Source: a virus
DNA: 50,590 nt
Virus record (IMG/VR): IMGVR_UViG_3300050821_002964
Span: 1-50,590 of that record
Strand: one strand, 5' to 3'
The position numbers were made by a program, and so were the translations under genes. Shown here piece by piece: positions 9,434 through 32,158 of this stretch. The notes beneath the pieces were generated by a model that worked only from the letters and a program-made list of their open reading frames with translations, was not told the origin of the DNA and did not search any database. Within the stretch, counting starts at the first letter, position 1; every line of letters begins with the position of its first letter.

Positions 9434-11415
9434 TTGCTGTAAAACGGTTTGACCGACGACTCGACTTTGATTGGCAGCCCCTTCGCCCAATCTGGCAACG
9501 TGGCCATCGCTGCGGAGAACTCCTCCGGCGTATGTCCGTCCGTGTGTGAGGCGAGAGCTTGATCGTGGACCAAGGCGAACGGAGGCATCCCGCGGCACTC
9601 GGCTTCGAGGGCACCGCAAGCCATAATGTCGGCCGCAACTCCTTGAGTGCAATTTTCCGCGAGCTTGCCACCATAAAGCTTCACCCGCCCCCACGAAACC
9701 GTCATCGGGAGCTGCCCCCAATAAGTGATCTGGTCGCGCTCCTCGCCCGGCAGCACCTCGATCGCAGGTTTGGGATAGGCCAGTGACCGGCCTGATGGCA
9801 GCTTGAACAGTAGGAACGGTAGATTCGCGATCTTGCGAATCACGAACGGCCCAGCCTCTTTCCCCGGTGCGAGAATCGCAGCGCGGGCTTGGTTGTTCAA
9901 ATAGTACCAGTAGCGCACCACTTTGTCACAGAGCGTGCGGTATGCCTCGATACCGCGCTCGCAAAGATCAAGTGGGAGGTAGAGCTGGTATTGCTCTCGG
10001 CAAGATGCTTGGAACTTCGAGGCTCCCATTTGAAAACCAGCTCCGAGAAATACTCGCTTACCAACCTCGCGCTGATCCTTGTTCACGCGCTCGGGTGGGA
10101 TGAGGTAGACGTGAGAGGCCATGAACTTGTAGAGGTCCTCGCCGCGCTGGAACTTCTCCAGCACATCCGTCTGACCCGCCAACCAACAGATGATACGCGC
10201 CTCCACGGCGTTGTAGTCACCGTCGAGCAAGGGGCCGCTGACAAAATGCCGGATGCTGCTGGCGATCACCTCAAGGGGGTTGCCATAGACCTCCTCCAGC
10301 CCCTCAGCTGTGCCGCCGCGCGCGATGTAGCGAAATGCCGGCTCGGTGCGCGAGCGCATCTCTGGCGTAGCTTTTTTCGCGTTCTGCAATTGCGGGCCAC
10401 CGCTCGACCAGCGCCCGGTTCCCGCGCCGTAGTACTTGAACACCCCGCGCATCCGGCCGTCGGGGCACGCCCAGTCGAGCATGGCGGCGATCTTCTTGAC
10501 CGCGGCGTAGCTGACCTGCTGGTAGAGCGTGAGGATGCGGCGGAGCCGCATGAGCCTGTCGCAGTCCTGCGACTGACCCATACGATAGTGAGCTTCGGCG
10601 TCAACTAGAGTCTGGGCGATAGCGTTCTCCACTGTCTCGGCCTGCATGTCGGGCAGTCCGACCAGTTCGCGCACCTTTTCCCGCTGCGTCGGGTTGAGCC
10701 CGGTCAAGGCGACGAACTCCGTCGCGACCTTGGTCTGCACCTCGTCGATGATGCGCTGTGCGTTGCGCAGCGCCGGCACGTTGACGGGGATGCCTAGTTG
10801 GTTCATGCGCAGGTCAAACTGGAACGTCTCCAACGGCAGACCTTGCAGCTCGAAAGCCGCGAGAGCCTTGTGAATCGCCTTCTCAGTGCGCACGTCTTGT
10901 CGGCAGTATTCTCCAAAGGCGAGCCACTCCTCGGGGAAGTCGCGAGGGGCATTGTATGTACCATCGGGCTTCGGCAGGGAGAAGAACTTGATGAGCTGCT
11001 TGCCGCGCGGGTCTTTCTGCTGCGCCAGCCCGAGAGCCTCAGCGCACTTCTCCAGGGACGACGGCAGACCGGCCTTGCGCGCCATCGCCGCCGTGCAGCG
11101 CCATTGGTGCATCTGTATCGGGTGGATGCCGATCTGCTGCTCGAACTTGGTGCCCCAGGTGATCGCTTGCTCGAACGGCGCATTATGTGCATATACATAG
11201 TCAGCATTGCGCAGGAGCAGGGTCGCTTCGTCGTTCTCACCGAGCATGTCCGCAGTTCTGAACTTAGGGTTCACCCACAGGAAGACCTCGTCGCTGTCAT
11301 GCACGCTGATGCCGGCCATGAAGACCTCCGTCGAGGGATCGCAGGCGTAGCGGTGGGCGCCGACGGATGTTAAGTCCGCGCGGCTCCTCGTTTCATAGTC
11401 GAGGTGAACGATCAT
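9430..11415 (-). CDS. Family A DNA polymerase with 3'-5' exonuclease domain
   Basis: 661 residues from ATG 11415, which overlaps the preceding stop (ATGA). The N-terminus is a DnaQ-like exonuclease with HLDYETRSRADL (Asp6, Glu8) and YAHNAPFEQ. The polymerase domain shows motif A LLDGDYNAVEARIICWLAG, motif B KRVFLGAGFQMGASKFQ and motif C LVHDQ, in which Gln takes the place of the usual Glu after His-Asp. It is shorter than bacterial Pol I and lacks the 5' nuclease domain, as usual for phage replicative enzymes. The gene sits in the middle of the replication unit, between the C5 methyltransferase and the ssDNA-binding protein genes. Confidence 0.93.
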   Translation of the reverse strand: MIVHLDYETRSRADLTSVGAHRYACDPSTEVFMAGISVHDSDEVFLWVNPKFRTADMLGENDEATLLLRNADYVYAHNAPFEQAITWGTKFEQQIGIHPIQMHQWRCTAAMARKAGLPSSLEKCAEALGLAQQKDPRGKQLIKFFSLPKPDGTYNAPRDFPEEWLAFGEYCRQDVRTEKAIHKALAAFELQGLPLETFQFDLRMNQLGIPVNVPALRNAQRIIDEVQTKVATEFVALTGLNPTQREKVRELVGLPDMQAETVENAIAQTLVDAEAHYRMGQSQDCDRLMRLRRILTLYQQVSYAAVKKIAAMLDWACPDGRMRGVFKYYGAGTGRWSSGGPQLQNAKKATPEMRSRTEPAFRYIARGGTAEGLEEVYGNPLEVIASSIRHFVSGPLLDGDYNAVEARIICWLAGQTDVLEKFQRGEDLYKFMASHVYLIPPERVNKDQREVGKRVFLGAGFQMGASKFQASCREQYQLYLPLDLCERGIEAYRTLCDKVVRYWYYLNNQARAAILAPGKEAGPFVIRKIANLPFLLFKLPSGRSLAYPKPAIEVLPGEERDQITYWGQLPMTVSWGRVKLYGGKLAENCTQGVAADIMACGALEAECRGMPPFALVHDQALASHTDGHTPEEFSAAMATLPDWAKGLPIKVESSVKPFYSK

Positions 11416-11669
11416 TGGTTCCCCCACGGGCCATCTGGGCCGCCCCAATCATCATATCCTTCGCAGTCGTCAGGACTGAAGCCGTGCAGTTCATAAGTTT
11501 GCGCCTCATTGAACAGAGCTTTGCCCAGAGAGTTGAACTGCCTCGCCTTCGAGCCCTTGACTACCTGCCGGCCACGCCGCCGCCAACCGTCAAACGTGAG
11601 CCAACCAAGTCGGCGCAGTTTGCGGTCGAGACGGGTCTCAAGAAGTCGAAGTGGAAGACAACGAGGCAT
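11412..11669 (-). CDS. Phage protein of unknown function, 85 aa
   Basis: 85 residues with a basic first half (LETRLDRKLRRLGWLTFDGWRRRGRQVVKG) and an acidic, Trp- and Gly-rich end (DDCEGYDDWGGPDGPWGNQ). It is coupled to the polymerase by an ATGA overlap. The split charge pattern could suit a DNA- or polymerase-associated factor, but no family is recognised. About 93 bases without a gene separate it from the gene upstream. Confidence 0.5.
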   Translation of the reverse strand: MPRCLPLRLLETRLDRKLRRLGWLTFDGWRRRGRQVVKGSKARQFNSLGKALFNEAQTYELHGFSPDDCEGYDDWGGPDGPWGNQ

Positions 11670-11762
11670 TAGAAAGGTTCGTCGTATAAGTGTGACGAGT
11701 TGATCGCGTGAGGGAGGCAGCGAATGTTGGTGAAGCTATAAGGCAACGAGTGTTTGATCCGA

Positions 11763-12026
11763 TCACGGTTTGCTCGCTTGCCGGGATTTCTTTCTCTCAG
11801 TGACCGGCTCGTAGCCATATTCGCGGAGCCACGCATCTACAATCTCGATGAGGTCTTCCAATTCGAGGTCGGGGAACGCCGCATCCAGAGAATAGTATTT
11901 CGGGGTTGGCAGCTCCAGCAACTCAATCAGTCGGTCTGGTTTGACGTGTTCCTTGACGAGACGAGCCATGATCGGGTCACGATCGAGGAGGTCGGCGATG
12001 GTCTTGGCCTGTGAGATGTGGATCAT
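11763..12026 (-). CDS. Phage protein of unknown function, 87 aa
   Basis: A longer frame is open upstream, but ATG 12026 overlaps the stop of the preceding small gene and gives a sensible protein of 87 residues, MIHISQAKTIADLLDRDPIM and onward. It is acidic and helical (PDLELEDLIEIVDAWLREYG) with a basic tail (ERKKSRQASKP). No family is recognised. It belongs to the run of coupled small genes between polymerase and ssDNA-binding protein. Confidence 0.55.
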   Translation of the reverse strand: MIHISQAKTIADLLDRDPIMARLVKEHVKPDRLIELLELPTPKYYSLDAAFPDLELEDLIEIVDAWLREYGYEPVTERKKSRQASKP

Positions 12027-12199
12027 GGGTTCTCCTCCACGAAGCGGGAGAACCGCTTCGCCTTCTGCTTCTTGCCGACATGCGCGGGCACCTTCTCCTT
12101 GCGATGGTACATGCGAATGCGCTTGAGCGAGGGAAAAGTGGATCGGGACGCGCGCATGCGCACGTCCCGAATCTCGGGGCCAGAGAGTAGCTGTTGCAT
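12023..12199 (-). CDS. Small basic protein, 58 aa
   Basis: 58 residues, MQQLLSGPEIRDVRMRASRS onward, strongly basic (RIRMYHRKEKVPAHVGKKQKAKRF). The ATG overlaps the stop of the ssDNA-binding protein gene by one base (TGATG) and its own stop overlaps the next ATG. The charge suggests nucleic acid binding. Function is otherwise unknown. Confidence 0.5.
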   Translation of the reverse strand: MQQLLSGPEIRDVRMRASRSTFPSLKRIRMYHRKEKVPAHVGKKQKAKRFSRFVEENP

Positions 12200-23874: not shown

Positions 23875-24107
23875 GCACGGCAAAAATAAACAAAGCTGAT
23901 ATCCAAGCTGAAGCATTGGGTGTTGTTGCTTCATGGCTTAGATCAGAATCTCACTATGATGGCGAAGATAGGCGGGACATCACCGACAGCCAACAAGAAA
24001 ATATCATCGTGTGGTCGCAGGAAATTCAGGAAAAAATCGCCATACTTGTAGAGCTTGAAATAGCCAAACTTAGAACCAGACAGGCGATTCGGAGAATGAG
24101 ATCATGA
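23871..24107 (+). CDS. Phage protein of unknown function, 78 aa
   Basis: 78 residues from GTG 23871 (GTGA overlap with the gene before), MSTAKINKADIQAEALGVVA onward. It is helical and charged, with a basic C-terminus (LRTRQAIRRMRS). It overlaps the following ATG as well. Base composition is less GC-rich than the structural genes. No family recognised. Confidence 0.5.
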   Translation: MSTAKINKADIQAEALGVVASWLRSESHYDGEDRRDITDSQQENIIVWSQEIQEKIAILVELEIAKLRTRQAIRRMRS

Positions 24108-24652
24108 ACGACGCATCACCCACCCAACCAGCAGGCCAGCCCACCGAGGCGAAGGTCGAGCAGAGGCATCACGATCTTGTCACCAAGGTTTTCGCACCAT
24201 ATTGCGAAATCATTACAGAGGTTTTGGATAACGAAGCCGCCCAACTCCTCGCCAACCTCGAAGCCCGCGCCGTTGCAGCGCTTGAAGCACAGTTAGACTT
24301 GCTTCTATCTCGGCATGAAGCTCGACTGGCTGCCTTTGAAGAATATAAAAAGGTTCGCGATAGCCAGCTCGCGCAAGCTGAAGCCGCACTTGCGCAGGCG
24401 AAGAAGGTTGGGGCGCGGTTGCGAGAAGCACTTCGTAATTTAGTCGATGCCGTGAATTTAGAAGCGCCGGGAGGGATGTATATCGGCGGTTTAACTGGGC
24501 CGGCACTTATTGCCGCAGTCAACGCCCTTGCAGATCAATCCACCCAAAGACTTGTAGAAACGATAAACGAGGCCCAAAAACTGGCCCACTCAAAACCTTT
24601 AAAGCTTAACGCCGCCATGTCCGCGCCTACCACCACTGGAGAAACTTTATGA
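24104..24652 (+). CDS. Coiled-coil phage protein, 182 aa
   Basis: 182 residues, predicted mostly helical. A coiled coil from about 35 to 110 (AAQLLANLEARAVAALEAQL, QLAQAEAALAQAKKVGARLR) is followed by a Gly-rich turn (EAPGGMYIGGLTGP) and a second helix. The layout (coiled coil, then LREALRNLVDAV) is common in uncharacterised phage accessory proteins. It overlaps both neighbours by 4 bases. Confidence 0.55.
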   Translation: MNDASPTQPAGQPTEAKVEQRHHDLVTKVFAPYCEIITEVLDNEAAQLLANLEARAVAALEAQLDLLLSRHEARLAAFEEYKKVRDSQLAQAEAALAQAKKVGARLREALRNLVDAVNLEAPGGMYIGGLTGPALIAAVNALADQSTQRLVETINEAQKLAHSKPLKLNAAMSAPTTTGETL

Positions 24653-24849
24653 AACAAACATTCCGCGTCCGCACGCCTTCGGGAGAAGAAATGCACCTTC
24701 GCACAGAAACGGCGGAACAAGCCGCTCACCATATGCGGCCATGTTTCGGTTTTGAAAGCGATACCCTTGAAGTAACAGATAACGAAGGGAAGATAACTTT
24801 TCACTCAGTAGCGCCAGCCGCCATGTCGCAGCAACCGGGAGGGAAATAG
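24649..24849 (+). CDS. Phage protein of unknown function, 66 aa
   Basis: 66 residues, MKQTFRVRTPSGEEMHLRTE onward, a small beta-rich protein with one Cys. Its ATGA overlap with the gene before and its stop one base before the methyltransferase ATG mark it as a coupled gene. Function unknown. Confidence 0.5.
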   Translation: MKQTFRVRTPSGEEMHLRTETAEQAAHHMRPCFGFESDTLEVTDNEGKITFHSVAPAAMSQQPGGK

Positions 24850-24850
24850 C

Positions 24851-25387
24851 ATGGTATTTTCTCGCATATGGGCCATGCCCGACAAGCGTACATTTTCTAT
24901 CCCTCCCATTGGGGATTTTGTGAAGCGTTATCTGTCGGAATCGAAGGTTAGTATTGACCCATTTGCGGGAGAAAAAAAGTGGGCTACTTACAACAACGAT
25001 CTTGAGCGCGATAAAGTGGATGCTCAGGACTTCCTGAAAACCCTGGCCGATAAAGGCGTAAGTGCAGACCTGCTTATTTTTGATCCTCCTTATAGCCCGC
25101 GCCAAATCAGCGAGGTCTATAAAAACGTAGGCAGGGAAGTCGGAATGGAGGGGACGCAAAACGGGGCGCTATACAAGCGTGTACGCACCGAAGCAATGAA
25201 GGTACTAGCTCCTTGCGCAACGGTTTTATCCTTCGGTTGGAATAGCGCCGGAATGGGGAATAAAAGAGGGTTTGAAATTATCGAGATTATGCTGGTCGCG
25301 CACGGTGGCGGTCACAATGACACCATCTGCGTAGCCGAGAAACACATCCCTGAGCCGACTTTATTCGCACCCGCGCAAAAGCCATGA
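24851..25387 (+). CDS. Phage adenine-specific DNA methylase-like protein
   Basis: 178 residues. It begins MVFSRIWAMPDKRTFSIPPI, has SIDPFAGE (motif I-like), YNNDLE, the catalytic LLIFDPPYSPRQI (motif IV, DPPY at about 78-81) and the end block LSFGWNSAGMGNKRGFEIIE with HGGGHNDTICVAE. The set FSRIWAMP, DPPYSPRQ and FGWNS-GMG is one I recognise from a compact phage family annotated as adenine-specific methylases. It is the third methyltransferase of this genome and the only one in the rightward early block. Confidence 0.85.
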   Translation: MVFSRIWAMPDKRTFSIPPIGDFVKRYLSESKVSIDPFAGEKKWATYNNDLERDKVDAQDFLKTLADKGVSADLLIFDPPYSPRQISEVYKNVGREVGMEGTQNGALYKRVRTEAMKVLAPCATVLSFGWNSAGMGNKRGFEIIEIMLVAHGGGHNDTICVAEKHIPEPTLFAPAQKP

Positions 25388-27766: not shown

Positions 27767-28032
27767 ACCGCTGCATCCCCGAAGACTGGACGGAGGTTCC
27801 CAAGTACCTCTTCGACTTCATAGCTGCATCCATCGACAACTACCGTGATGGGTGGGTTGGGGTCGTCTTCTACATCGAGCGGGGTTCCGGAAAGAAGTTC
27901 GGAGCAATCGACGATTCGGGTAGGTACTATCTCAACCTCCCGAAGCCTGAGCCTAGGTGCATCGGTGAGATGGGAGATCAACAGTTTAAGGGGTTCGTGG
28001 CCAAACTAGCGAACGAGTATTTTGGGGTATGA
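27763..28032 (+). CDS. Phage protein of unknown function, 89 aa
   Basis: 89 residues, MNRCIPEDWTEVPKYLFDFI onward, acidic, with aromatic residues in a beta-rich core (GWVGVVFYIERGSGKKFGAI). It overlaps the start of the large terminase by 4 bases (ATGA), so it is coupled to packaging genes. Function unknown. Confidence 0.5.
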   Translation: MNRCIPEDWTEVPKYLFDFIAASIDNYRDGWVGVVFYIERGSGKKFGAIDDSGRYYLNLPKPEPRCIGEMGDQQFKGFVAKLANEYFGV

Positions 28033-29765
28033 TCGACACCTCACAGTTCATCTCCTTCTGGGACTTTTTCAGCCAATGCTTCGTGCCGCTGATGAACCTG
28101 GAGCTGCCGTTGAAGCCCTTGCACCGGCACGTCTGCGAGGTGCTGCAAAAGGCGGTGCTCGGCGACTTGAACAAGGCGTTCATCTGTGTGAATATCCCCC
28201 CGCGCGTGGGTAAAACCAAGCTTATGGAAGCGTTGCAATGCTGGACGCTCGCGTACTTCCCTGATGCGCAGATCATCACCGTCAGCTACTCAAACGAGCT
28301 GGCCACCACTAGCGTCCGCTACGTCCAGCAGGCGATCGATTCTCCATGGTACAAAGAGTTATTCCCCACCCGCCTCGGCAAGCTCCGGCAATCTGACCAA
28401 TTCTCTACGACGGCCGGCGGCAAGGTCTACGGCGACGGCGTTGGCGGGTCGCTTACCGGCCTCGGCGCCGGGCTCAAGCGGCAGGCCGGCGGCATGATAA
28501 TCCTCGACGACCCGGCCAAGCCGGACGAGGCGCTCTCGCGCGTGGTGGGCGAGCAACTGCGGTTCTGGTTTGAGAATACGCTCAAGTCCCGGCGCAACTC
28601 ATCGCGGTGGACCCCCATCATCATCTGCGCGCAGCGGCTCGCCACGGACGATCTCCCCGGCTACATTCAGGAGACCTATCCAGACGACTGCTTCACGATC
28701 AAATTCCCCGCGATGGTGGATGGGGAGAGCACCATACCAGAGACGGTGGACACGCGCTCGCTTCTCCAGACCGAGGCAGCCAACCCCTACGCCTTCGCCT
28801 GCCAGTACCAGCAGGAGCCCATCGTCCTCGGGGGCAACCTCATCAAACTTGCCAACTTCAGATACTATGATCCTGACTCGCCGCCGCGCTTCGAGATGAA
28901 GATAATGACGGCCGACACAGCGTTGAAGGGGAAGCAGCACAACGACTATGCGGTGATCCAGTGCTGGGGTCGGTCGCTCAAGCGCGCGTTCCTGATCGAC
29001 CAGATTCGCGGCAAGTGGGAGCCGTCGCTGCTCTTGATGAACGCGCGCAAGTTCTACGAGAAGCACCACAAGTCGGCCTCGCCGATGCACTACATCGCGA
29101 TCGAGGAGGCCGGCGCCGGCTACAACCTGATGCTGGAGATGCGCAAGAAAGGCATCCCGGCGAAGGGCATCATCCGGCTCACCGACAAGGTCGAGCGCAT
29201 CAAGTCGATCCTCGCCTACCAGGAGACGGGCATGGTCTATCTCCCGCGGGGGATGCCCTGGTTGCCGGCGTTCGAGGTCGAGCTGGCCTCGTTCCGCGCG
29301 GATGGGAAGAGCACGCTCGATGACCAGTGCCTTATCGCAGGCACGTTGATAAGCTGCTGGCGGGGGGCGGTGCCCATCGAGGAGGTCAAAGTGGGGGACA
29401 AAGTAGCAACTAGAGAAGGATGGTTTCCAGTGGTAATCTCTGGCAAGACGGGGGAGAGCAGCGAGCTTTACCAGTATCAGGATGATGATCTGAATAGGGT
29501 GATTGGTACCGGGAACCACCCAGTTTGGCATGAGGGTAGGTTCCAGCGGATGCAGGATATTAGGGATGGGAACTACTGCCTTGCGGTTCAGATGGAGCCT
29601 CGGACGCGCCCAGTCTACAACCTGAAAGTGGATGGGCCGCCAGAGTATTTCGCTAACGGCGTCCTCGTTCATAACTGCGATGCGTTCGCTGATGGTGTCG
29701 GACTGACACTGGGGAAAGCCACGAGCATTCTCAACGTGCTCGGGAAGCGGAAGCAAGCTGCATAA
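28029..29765 (+). CDS. terL: Large terminase subunit interrupted by a mini-intein
   Basis: 578 residues, of which 462 are terminase. Walker A is NIPPRVGKT with Lys62 and Walker B is GMIILDDP with Asp160/161. The RNase H-like nuclease has MTADTALKG (Asp296), then YIAIEEAGAG, then the last acidic motif in STLDDQ-CDAFADGV. Between DDQ and CDAF lies a 116-residue intein (residues 434-549). After splicing the motif would read LDDQCDAFADG, like the DDQ-x-DA of other terminases. The unspliced protein has its last nuclease motif broken. The gene lies between small coupled genes and a radical SAM gene. Confidence 0.92.
   Translation: MIDTSQFISFWDFFSQCFVPLMNLELPLKPLHRHVCEVLQKAVLGDLNKAFICVNIPPRVGKTKLMEALQCWTLAYFPDAQIITVSYSNELATTSVRYVQQAIDSPWYKELFPTRLGKLRQSDQFSTTAGGKVYGDGVGGSLTGLGAGLKRQAGGMIILDDPAKPDEALSRVVGEQLRFWFENTLKSRRNSSRWTPIIICAQRLATDDLPGYIQETYPDDCFTIKFPAMVDGESTIPETVDTRSLLQTEAANPYAFACQYQQEPIVLGGNLIKLANFRYYDPDSPPRFEMKIMTADTALKGKQHNDYAVIQCWGRSLKRAFLIDQIRGKWEPSLLLMNARKFYEKHHKSASPMHYIAIEEAGAGYNLMLEMRKKGIPAKGIIRLTDKVERIKSILAYQETGMVYLPRGMPWLPAFEVELASFRADGKSTLDDQCLIAGTLISCWRGAVPIEEVKVGDKVATREGWFPVVISGKTGESSELYQYQDDDLNRVIGTGNHPVWHEGRFQRMQDIRDGNYCLAVQMEPRTRPVYNLKVDGPPEYFANGVLVHNCDAFADGVGLTLGKATSILNVLGKRKQAA
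29328..29675 (+). other. Mini-intein within the large terminase, 116 aa
   Basis: It starts with Cys434 in CLIAGTLISCWRGAVPIEEV (block A; VGDKVATREG follows). Block B is IGTGNHPVWHEG with the conserved His. The end is VYNLKVDGPPEYFANGVLVHN, with penultimate His and final Asn549. The next residue, Cys550, is the +1 nucleophile. All splicing residues are present, so protein splicing is expected. There is no homing endonuclease domain, and 116 residues is near the smallest size known to me. Its codons look less GC-rich than the terminase around it. Confidence 0.88.
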
Positions 29766-29769
29766 GTTT

Positions 29770-30603
29770 ATGGGGTGCCTAAATTCCACAGGTCAGTTTT
29801 CGCACTGGTTTGGTAATATACACCTCAGTGGGCCGTGTAATCGTGCCTGCTATTTCTGCATCGGTCAGCACATGATGGCGCTAGACCCACTGAACAATTT
29901 GAAACTTTGGCCACTGGACAACTTAGAGGCTTTTGTGGCTGAGTGCCTACAGCATCGAGTGGGTGAAGTGAATCTCACCGGCAGCAATACCGACCCCCTC
30001 CTCTACAAGCACCATGCGGAACTCTGCGGATTTCTCAGGAGTCGGTTGCCTGGATGCAAGCTGGGCATCCGAACGAATGGGGTAGCGGCGGTGAGGCATC
30101 CAGAGACTTGGGGTCTTTATGATAAGGCGAGTATCTCAATTACTTCACTAGACCGGGGAATCTATGGAAAGACGATGGGTTGTGGCGAACCCCCAGACGT
30201 GGGCGCCATTTTCAGGATTAAGCCTGGGATGCCAATCAAGATTAATATGGTGCTCTGCCCAGAAACAGTTGGCGGAGACATCTACAACACTCTAGCTCGG
30301 TTGGCCGACCTCGGGGTTAAAACCGTCAACCTCCGTGAACCCTATGGTCAGCCGCATTTGGGATGCCCGCTGACGAGCCCCTGCGGAGAAAGATTAGGTA
30401 TGCCGAGATTTAAGTTCCTCGGCATGGACGTAACCTATTGGGATGTCCATTACGTTGAGGTGGAGAGCGTCAATCTGTATGCCAATGGGGTAGTCAGCAA
30501 AACCTACCCAATCACCAAAGGGCATGCCCCTTCAGGGGAAGTTCACGGTCAAGAGCATTGGGTGAAGAGCGGGCGTATCCGACCACAGTGGGTGAGGGCT
30601 TGA
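29770..30603 (+). CDS. Radical SAM enzyme
   Basis: 277 residues. GPCNRACYFCIG has Cys23, Cys27 and Cys30 in the C-x3-C-x2-C pattern that binds the 4Fe-4S cluster of radical SAM proteins. LTGSNTDPLL fits the GGE-like strand region, and KLGIRTNGV and ASISITSLD look like later strands of the partial TIM barrel. A C-terminal part with several Cys (GCPLTSPCGERLG) might bind a second cluster or substrate. Substrate unknown. It stands between terminase and portal, where other phages have no enzyme, and looks less GC-rich than its neighbours. About 140 bases without a gene follow. Confidence 0.82.
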   Translation: MGCLNSTGQFSHWFGNIHLSGPCNRACYFCIGQHMMALDPLNNLKLWPLDNLEAFVAECLQHRVGEVNLTGSNTDPLLYKHHAELCGFLRSRLPGCKLGIRTNGVAAVRHPETWGLYDKASISITSLDRGIYGKTMGCGEPPDVGAIFRIKPGMPIKINMVLCPETVGGDIYNTLARLADLGVKTVNLREPYGQPHLGCPLTSPCGERLGMPRFKFLGMDVTYWDVHYVEVESVNLYANGVVSKTYPITKGHAPSGEVHGQEHWVKSGRIRPQWVRA

Positions 30604-30745
30604 CCAGCGCGGCGTATCCGCATAGTCCCTACTGGCGGAGGGTGCGGTCTCCGCGCGCGGGGAATGTTGGGGAACATCGGCCGGTCATCCGGTCATCCTC
30701 CACGCTTGACCTGCGAACGGGGCCGGATTAGAGGGTAGCTCCAAC

Positions 30746-32158
30746 ATGGAAACAGTCACCACCTACGAGCCGCGCGCGGTTCGGCGAAATGGGCTTCAAG
30801 AGATGGTGGATGGGCTGTCAGGACAGCTCAGCGTACCATTCGGCCCAGGTCAAACGATCGCGCAGCCTTGGACACTGATCGAGGGAAACGCGTACTCACC
30901 GTTCACTCTTAACAGAATAGGGCTTAGTTACAGTTTCATGTGTCAGGGTCTCGTTCAAACGATCATTTGTCAGCCGGTCGCCGACGCTTTTCGTGGGGGC
31001 TTCACAATCACTTCAGCGGAGCTGGCCCCAGAAGATGTGACCAAATTGCTGAATACGATCAAGCGTCCCCGCGGGCGAAACAGATTCGTTCAGCCGGTGA
31101 CGCCGAACGCCGGTTACAATCTGGGTAATTCGGACATTCACACGGCTCAAGCGGTCTTGAACTGGGCGCGGCTCTACGGCGGCGCCGGCCTCATCATCAA
31201 CACGGATCAACCTTTCAATCGTGATTTAGAGATCGAACGGATCGACAAAGATTCACCCTTGGAGTTCCTCGCCGCCGACCGTTGGGAGTTGATCTTGTCG
31301 CAGACGGACATCTGGAACAACAGAAACGAGACCCCGTTCAACTATTACGGGCTGCCACTACATCGCTCGCGCGTGGTCAAGGTGCTCGGCACCGAGGCTC
31401 CCAGTTATATCCGGCTCCGACTTCAGGGTTGGGGGATGTCCTCGTTGGAGTCGTGTATTCGGGCGATTAACTCGTTCGTGAAATTCGAGAACCTCATTTT
31501 CGAGCTGATCGACGAGGCCAAAATCGACGTGTACGGCATCCAGGGTTTCAACGACTCCCTCCTTACTGATGAAGGCTCGGCGAACACCGCCCGGCGCATC
31601 TCGCTCTCGAACCGCCTCAAGAATTACCAGAACGCGCTCGTCCACGACAGCGAGGACAAGTACGAGCAGAAGCAGATCACCTGGTCGGGACTCGCGGAGC
31701 TGTGGAACGAGCTGCGGTTGAACCTTTCGTCGGCGTTGAAGATTCCGATGAACAAACTGTTCGGCCAGTCCGCGACCGGGTTCGGCGGTGGCCAGGACTC
31801 GCTGGAGAACTACAACTCGATCGTGGAGCAGGTGCGCTATGAGGCGGAGCCGGTGATGACTGCCATCCTCGATCTACGCTGTCAGCAGCTTTTCGGGTTG
31901 ATCCCGGAGTACCAGATCGCGTGGAAGCCGCTCAAAATCCTCGATGCCAAAGAGGAGGAGGAGGTGAAGACCTCCCAGCAGAACCGCACGCTCGCGTTGT
32001 TTCAACAGCGCCTCATCACTGGCATCGAGGCGAGCAAGATTCTCAAGCAGGACAACCTCCTGCCGATTGCGACCGAGGTCGGGCAGGGTTTGCGCGATGT
32101 TGAGCCTACGCTGCCCAATCAGGGGGAGGCTACGGAAGCGAAGAAAGCCGCGGCGTGA
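30746..32158 (+). CDS. Portal protein (DUF1073 family)
   Basis: 470 residues. The N-terminal half (YSFMCQGLVQTIICQPVADA, NWARLYGGAGLIINTD), then GMSSLESCIRAINSFVKFEN, and the block KIPMNKLFGQSATGFGGGQD with ENYNSIVEQVR are typical of DUF1073 portals. The last 60 residues are charged (EAKKAAA end). It forms the dodecameric DNA gate to which the terminase docks. The start follows GAGGGTAGCTCCAAC. Its stop overlaps the GTG of the next gene. Confidence 0.88.
   Translation: METVTTYEPRAVRRNGLQEMVDGLSGQLSVPFGPGQTIAQPWTLIEGNAYSPFTLNRIGLSYSFMCQGLVQTIICQPVADAFRGGFTITSAELAPEDVTKLLNTIKRPRGRNRFVQPVTPNAGYNLGNSDIHTAQAVLNWARLYGGAGLIINTDQPFNRDLEIERIDKDSPLEFLAADRWELILSQTDIWNNRNETPFNYYGLPLHRSRVVKVLGTEAPSYIRLRLQGWGMSSLESCIRAINSFVKFENLIFELIDEAKIDVYGIQGFNDSLLTDEGSANTARRISLSNRLKNYQNALVHDSEDKYEQKQITWSGLAELWNELRLNLSSALKIPMNKLFGQSATGFGGGQDSLENYNSIVEQVRYEAEPVMTAILDLRCQQLFGLIPEYQIAWKPLKILDAKEEEEVKTSQQNRTLALFQQRLITGIEASKILKQDNLLPIATEVGQGLRDVEPTLPNQGEATEAKKAAA

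Follow-up and report, generated by a model that had tools for sequence, protein, structure and literature searches.

The radical-SAM gene and its slot

The window analysed here is the whole of a 50,590-nt sequence (IMG/VR record IMGVR_UViG_3300050821_002964) from a myovirus-like phage, with genes for tail sheath and baseplate wedge proteins. Between the large terminase gene, terL (28029-29765, + strand), and the portal gene (Phage_portal_3; 30746-32158, + strand) lies an intact 277-aa ORF (29770-30603, + strand), called here the rSAM gene. The first-pass annotation had read it as a radical-SAM gene, and the ORF itself, the alignment of its relatives, the profile matches, the AlphaFold2 fold and the selection on the protein all bear this out; they place it in a new MoaA/viperin-like family. 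The ATG start is correct, every relative aligning from residue 1. The rest of the interval up to the portal gene (30604-30745) is intergenic, and no convincing promoter or terminator was found around the rSAM gene.

terL and the portal gene form the left and right flanks of what proved to be a cargo slot. We compared 29 loci with a related portal, judging the interval wherever both terL and portal were present. It is empty (about 113 bp) in L051-L053 and about 1.1-1.9 kb long, with a different cargo, in most of the others. Over L053-L074 the content varies, the commonest cargo being a glycosyltransferase-like gene (phrog_1574) in the opposite orientation; L054 carries an HNH endonuclease there. 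None of the 29 has an rSAM gene in the slot or an intein in terL. The slot is therefore variable and the rSAM gene one of several genes that can occupy it as cargo; a role in the virion or in packaging is unsupported. That the gene is accessory to the packaging module, as previously proposed, thus holds.

terL is also the host of a 116-aa mini-intein without endonuclease domain (29328-29675, + strand). It interrupts the conserved DDQ-(V)DA motif of terL and is missing from all the related terL genes found. The C-extein that separates it from the rSAM gene (29676-29765, + strand) is typical of the lineage: it is mostly 67-75% identical to its counterparts, i.e. an ordinary terL 3' end. It had been suggested that intein and rSAM gene came as one transferred segment (29328-30745). 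This is unlikely, and we rejected a single foreign block, since a native-like C-extein lies in between; separate arrivals look likelier for the same reason, to judge from the sequence. Both elements may nevertheless have been imported together by homology, given that the relatives have neither. No direct repeats were found flanking the intein/rSAM region.

The base composition, said earlier to be unlike that of the neighbouring genes, does differ, but only mildly. With a GC content of 0.530, the rSAM gene is second lowest among 40 genes (mean 0.592, sd 0.032; z = -1.9), and its codon usage ranks fifth; about 6% of window segments of this length have as high an AT content. Two low-GC genes at 24104-25387 are composition outliers at least as strong as the rSAM gene, and the second of them matches phage DNA methyltransferases (phrog_11619).

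Family motifs and nearest radical-SAM relatives

The Pfam Radical_SAM model (PF04055) matched residues 23-112 with an E-value of 5.7e-6 and 27.0 bits, below the curated cut-off of 29.5; judged by motif and fold, the protein is a member of the radical-SAM superfamily. The CX3CX2C motif of the [4Fe-4S] cluster (CNRACYFC, residues 23-30; 29836-29859), already pointed out in the first-pass annotation, is invariant in all 17 aligned members. At the position of the usual SAM-binding GGE, as aligned to the GGEP of viperin, stands G-S-N-T-D-P (residues 71-76; 29980-29997), the family-wide form being G-[ST]-N-T-[DE]-P. K157-x-N159 (30238-30246) is nearly invariant and has the same form in the viperin profile alignment. 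Two signatures emerged from the family alignment: REPYGQP (residues 189-195; 30334-30354), with R189 to Q194 invariant, which led to the held-out member described below, and the C-terminal TYWDVHYVEVESVNLYA (residues 222-238; 30433-30483), which holds no conserved Cys. All these motifs lie on the + strand. In total, 62 columns of the 17-member alignment are invariant, including M1, G2, C3 and N5, the cluster motif, R101-T-N, R189-E-P-Y-G-Q and W224-D-V-H. The additional Cys noted earlier near the end of the protein (about residues 199 and 205) do exist in the window but are not conserved among family members. They therefore do not indicate a second Fe-S cluster, which we rejected; the only extra invariant Cys of the family is C3. 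Compared with L001, pN is 0.21 and pS 0.88 (saturated); such a pN beside saturated synonymous sites means strong purifying selection on the protein. rSAM is thus an intact, conserved enzyme gene. All family members share the MGCxN N-terminus (residues 1-5; 29770-29784), although the structural model shows it as disordered.

The AlphaFold2 model, built from 17 family members, has a mean pLDDT of 83 and shows a radical-SAM fold. It matched many radical-SAM structures with Z-scores of 11-17, among them GDGT-MAS (17.6), MoaA (16.4), SuiB (16.0), a viperin-like protein (15.5) and QueE (11.6). Fold alone is insufficient to pick a subfamily, because GDGT-MAS and SuiB also score high. A single-sequence search of the PDB with the window protein gave no match, and a profile search of the PDB sequences gave as nearest the viperins (8e-7) and MoaA (5e-6), over residues 16-180 or so. 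MoaA models were matched by 16 of 17 members and the PADLOC model of prokaryotic viperin (pVip, PDLC02903) by all 17 (best 3e-9). The window protein falls far below the curated cut-offs, with 32 bits against 284 for MoaA (TIGR02666) and 19 bits against the NCBIfam value of 180 for prokaryotic viperin (NF038283). With scores around a tenth of the cut-offs, the proteins form a separate single-cluster radical-SAM family in the neighbourhood of MoaA and viperin, belonging to neither; such was the outcome of the subfamily profile check that had been proposed for this gene.

MoaA (GTP 3',8-cyclase) is a nucleotide-acting relative with the same radical-SAM core, but the Cys of its C-terminal second [4Fe-4S] cluster have no conserved counterparts in the 17 members. 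pVip shares the single-cluster core, the K-x-N and an N-x-H that precedes the cluster motif and aligns with viperin in the profile alignment. It differs in its GGE, replaced here by G-[ST]-N-T-[DE], and in being a host defence, whereas the rSAM family is phage-borne and NAD-linked (see below). It is possible, though doubtful, that the enzyme is a viperin-like nucleotide dehydratase, turning an ordinary NTP into a 3'-deoxy-3',4'-didehydro nucleotide, chain-terminating or toxic, which phages and small bacteria would direct against competing elements. The NAD neighbours would then reflect a common timing or defence context and not the substrate. The pVip match in every member, the first rank of viperin among PDB sequences and the two common motifs all favour this; the low score and the altered GGE speak against it, and it leaves unexplained why NAD genes and NrtR recur next to the gene, once in a held-out case.

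A QueE-like 7-deazaguanine enzyme is hardly credible. QueE has the radical-SAM fold, and two members weakly match its model (1.7e-6), but MoaA and viperin are ahead in both fold and profile. QueC and QueD are each absent from all 18 carrier records, in keeping with the first-pass remark that no queuosine-pathway partner is seen, and we rejected the QueE pathway.

Distribution, genomic contexts and the link to NAD genes

The relatives are 48-71% identical. In IMG/VR, 24 loci were found, plus L037 and G418; not counting the window, they represent about 17 distinct phages. Among 84,980 species genomes only two carry a member, both of them Patescibacteria (Saccharibacteria L026 and Berkelbacteria L027). 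Profile searching in 380 patescibacterial genomes added none, and a broader family in the phylum was rejected on this count of two in 380. The 50,697 GenBank phage records and 72,556 plasmids hold no family member, giving remote MoaA-like matches only. The family is thus rare and undescribed, without counterpart in the libraries searched, and it is a mobile cargo of unrelated phages and of two Patescibacteria. The nearest relative of the window protein, and its sister in the tree, is L001 (70%), from a phage that bears NAMPT and NadM. In L046, a second, distinct radical-SAM gene (11157-12059) follows just downstream of the rSAM relative.

The neighbourhoods of the homologues, the comparison of which had also been proposed, retain none of the window's neighbours. 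A fixed partner gene was rejected, as neighbours are common only to near-identical or closely related contigs. The gene lies among head genes in L040 (between the portal and the scaffold/major head protein), with a DNA polymerase and a ligase in L043, and near a RecE-like exonuclease in L041 and a DNA helicase in L034. These data bear on the earlier proposal that the enzyme modifies a virion protein, the terminase or phage DNA. The head-module position in the window and in L040, and the presence of peptide modifiers such as SuiB among the structural matches, are in its favour. However, the gene is elsewhere in most carriers, two of which are bacterial genomes, no neighbour protein is conserved across loci, and there is no conserved Cys for an auxiliary cluster. 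With relatives in so many unrelated contexts, and with the slot vacant or occupied by other genes in phages related to the window, we regard this proposal as quite improbable.

The sole recurrent theme among the neighbourhoods is that of NAD genes. In L026 the row reads NAPRTase, nicotinamidase, rSAM, NrtR, NadE, NadD, and in L027 NrtR is directly upstream of rSAM, with a Nudix gene downstream. Two jumbo phages have the orders rSAM, NadM-Nudix, NAMPT (L030) and NadM-Nudix, rSAM, NAMPT (L031). In a further phage genome of 379 kb (G418), a held-out case found afterwards with a DNA motif that represents a different stretch of the protein, the end of the NAMPT gene lies about 1.6 kb away from rSAM. 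These five loci make up the adjacency evidence. The L026 cluster could also be taken to mean a strict NAD-pathway enzyme, one that supplies or repairs the pyridine precursor (the nicotinate/nicotinamide moiety) and leaves the ribose alone. Such a role is unlikely: rSAM does lie in a cluster that holds NrtR and the genes for salvage, but these make up a complete route even without it, and only two of 380 sampled Patescibacteria have the family.

NAMPT was present in all seven distinct large carriers known first, hence in eight of eight with G418, and a NadM-type ORF in six of the seven checked. Among 16 control IMG/VR contigs above 100 kb, five had NAMPT (Fisher p = 0.002); they were selected with a random 15-mer and, since this yielded one contig of that size only, with a tRNA motif. 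NadV has been reported in 33% of jumbo phages and 22% of medium phages (PMC9503650), rates with which that of the controls agrees. NAMPT being common in large phages, co-occurrence alone is moderate evidence. Adjacency is the stronger evidence of a link: rSAM adjoins an NAD gene in five of the ten genomes having both, a rough binomial p of about 2e-6 as computed with n = 11 and a chance per genome that we estimated at 2.1%. The NAD-adjacent members are scattered over the tree and do not form one clade. The family is thus genomically tied to NAD(+) synthesis. In the window no NAMPT or NadM/NadD-type gene and no match to PF04095, PF01467 or PF00293 was found, the 50.6-kb record being possibly incomplete; neither type was found in the other small carriers, a single one of which has a Nudix gene.

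The phage NAMPT(NadV)-NadM salvage, which we take to be of the NARP2 type, adjoins rSAM or occurs in the same large genomes; rSAM, for its part, is not a described member of it. We know of no radical-SAM enzyme acting in NAD metabolism. No link between radical SAM, NAD and phages was found in the literature searched, including as part of phage NAD salvage. In a survey of viral NAD systems, the word 'radical' is absent (PMC9503650).

Proposed function and broken copies

Since the gene recurs beside NAD genes, the enzyme probably acts on a nucleotide in NAD metabolism and not on a virion part. Our leading reading, to which we give an even chance, is that of a mobile single-cluster enzyme which acts on such a nucleotide, probably by ribose chemistry, and which is no part of the virion. 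The enzyme would reductively cleave SAM, and the resulting 5'-deoxyadenosyl radical would abstract a hydrogen from the substrate. Candidates for this small nucleotide are NAD, NMN, ADP-ribose derivatives and precursors. MoaA and viperin each abstract a ribose hydrogen from a nucleotide; because of this, the ribose of NAD, NMN or an ADP-ribose derivative is the leading guess, and abstraction would, by analogy with MoaA on GTP and viperin on CTP, probably occur there. NAMPT-NadM salvage is a known phage answer to NAD-depleting defence. In large phages, rSAM may work alongside their own salvage pair, which replenishes NAD under attack from host NADase defences; in small phages, the window included, rSAM may act on the host pool. 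The terL-portal interval would simply be its cargo slot. NrtR is an ADP-ribose-responsive NAD regulator, and its presence next to rSAM in the Patescibacteria would fit control by the NAD state.

A more specific version, which we consider fairly unlikely, is that rSAM alters NAD, a precursor or an ADP-ribose immune signal, e.g. at a ribose carbon, so that NAD-destroying host defences meet a cofactor or decoy they cannot use. If true, this would be a radical-chemistry arm of NAD-based counter-defence, viperin-related but carried by viruses. A strongly conserved family that recurs near NAD genes, both in phages and in ultrasmall bacteria, offers a narrow and directly testable list of substrates, and it may reveal a new step in the contest between phage and host over NAD.

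Some copies are no longer intact. L016, L017, L018 and L020 have in common a one-base deletion at residue 29 that shifts the frame, and L023/L024 (L047/L048) keep residues 1-78 only. We considered programmed frameshifting in L016/L017 and rejected it: one T is lost from a T5 run and there is no good slippery site, so that these copies read better as broken genes. The eight large NAMPT carriers include both broken-copy lineages, and the other six have an intact copy. The gene is therefore dispensable in these two large-phage lineages, as expected of an accessory function. As to mobility, an Endo VII-type gene lies directly upstream of rSAM in L016, which suggests co-conversion by homing there. 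Homing-type genes next to rSAM (clear in L016, weak in L033 and L031) are too scarce for a claim that they mobilise it. When the region 4558-5833 of L016 is compared with L017, the rSAM genes differ over the first 100 nt or so and are identical thereafter. What follows the first 78 rSAM codons in L023/L048 is the C-terminal part of a UDP-sugar-dehydrogenase-like gene, joined in a different frame.
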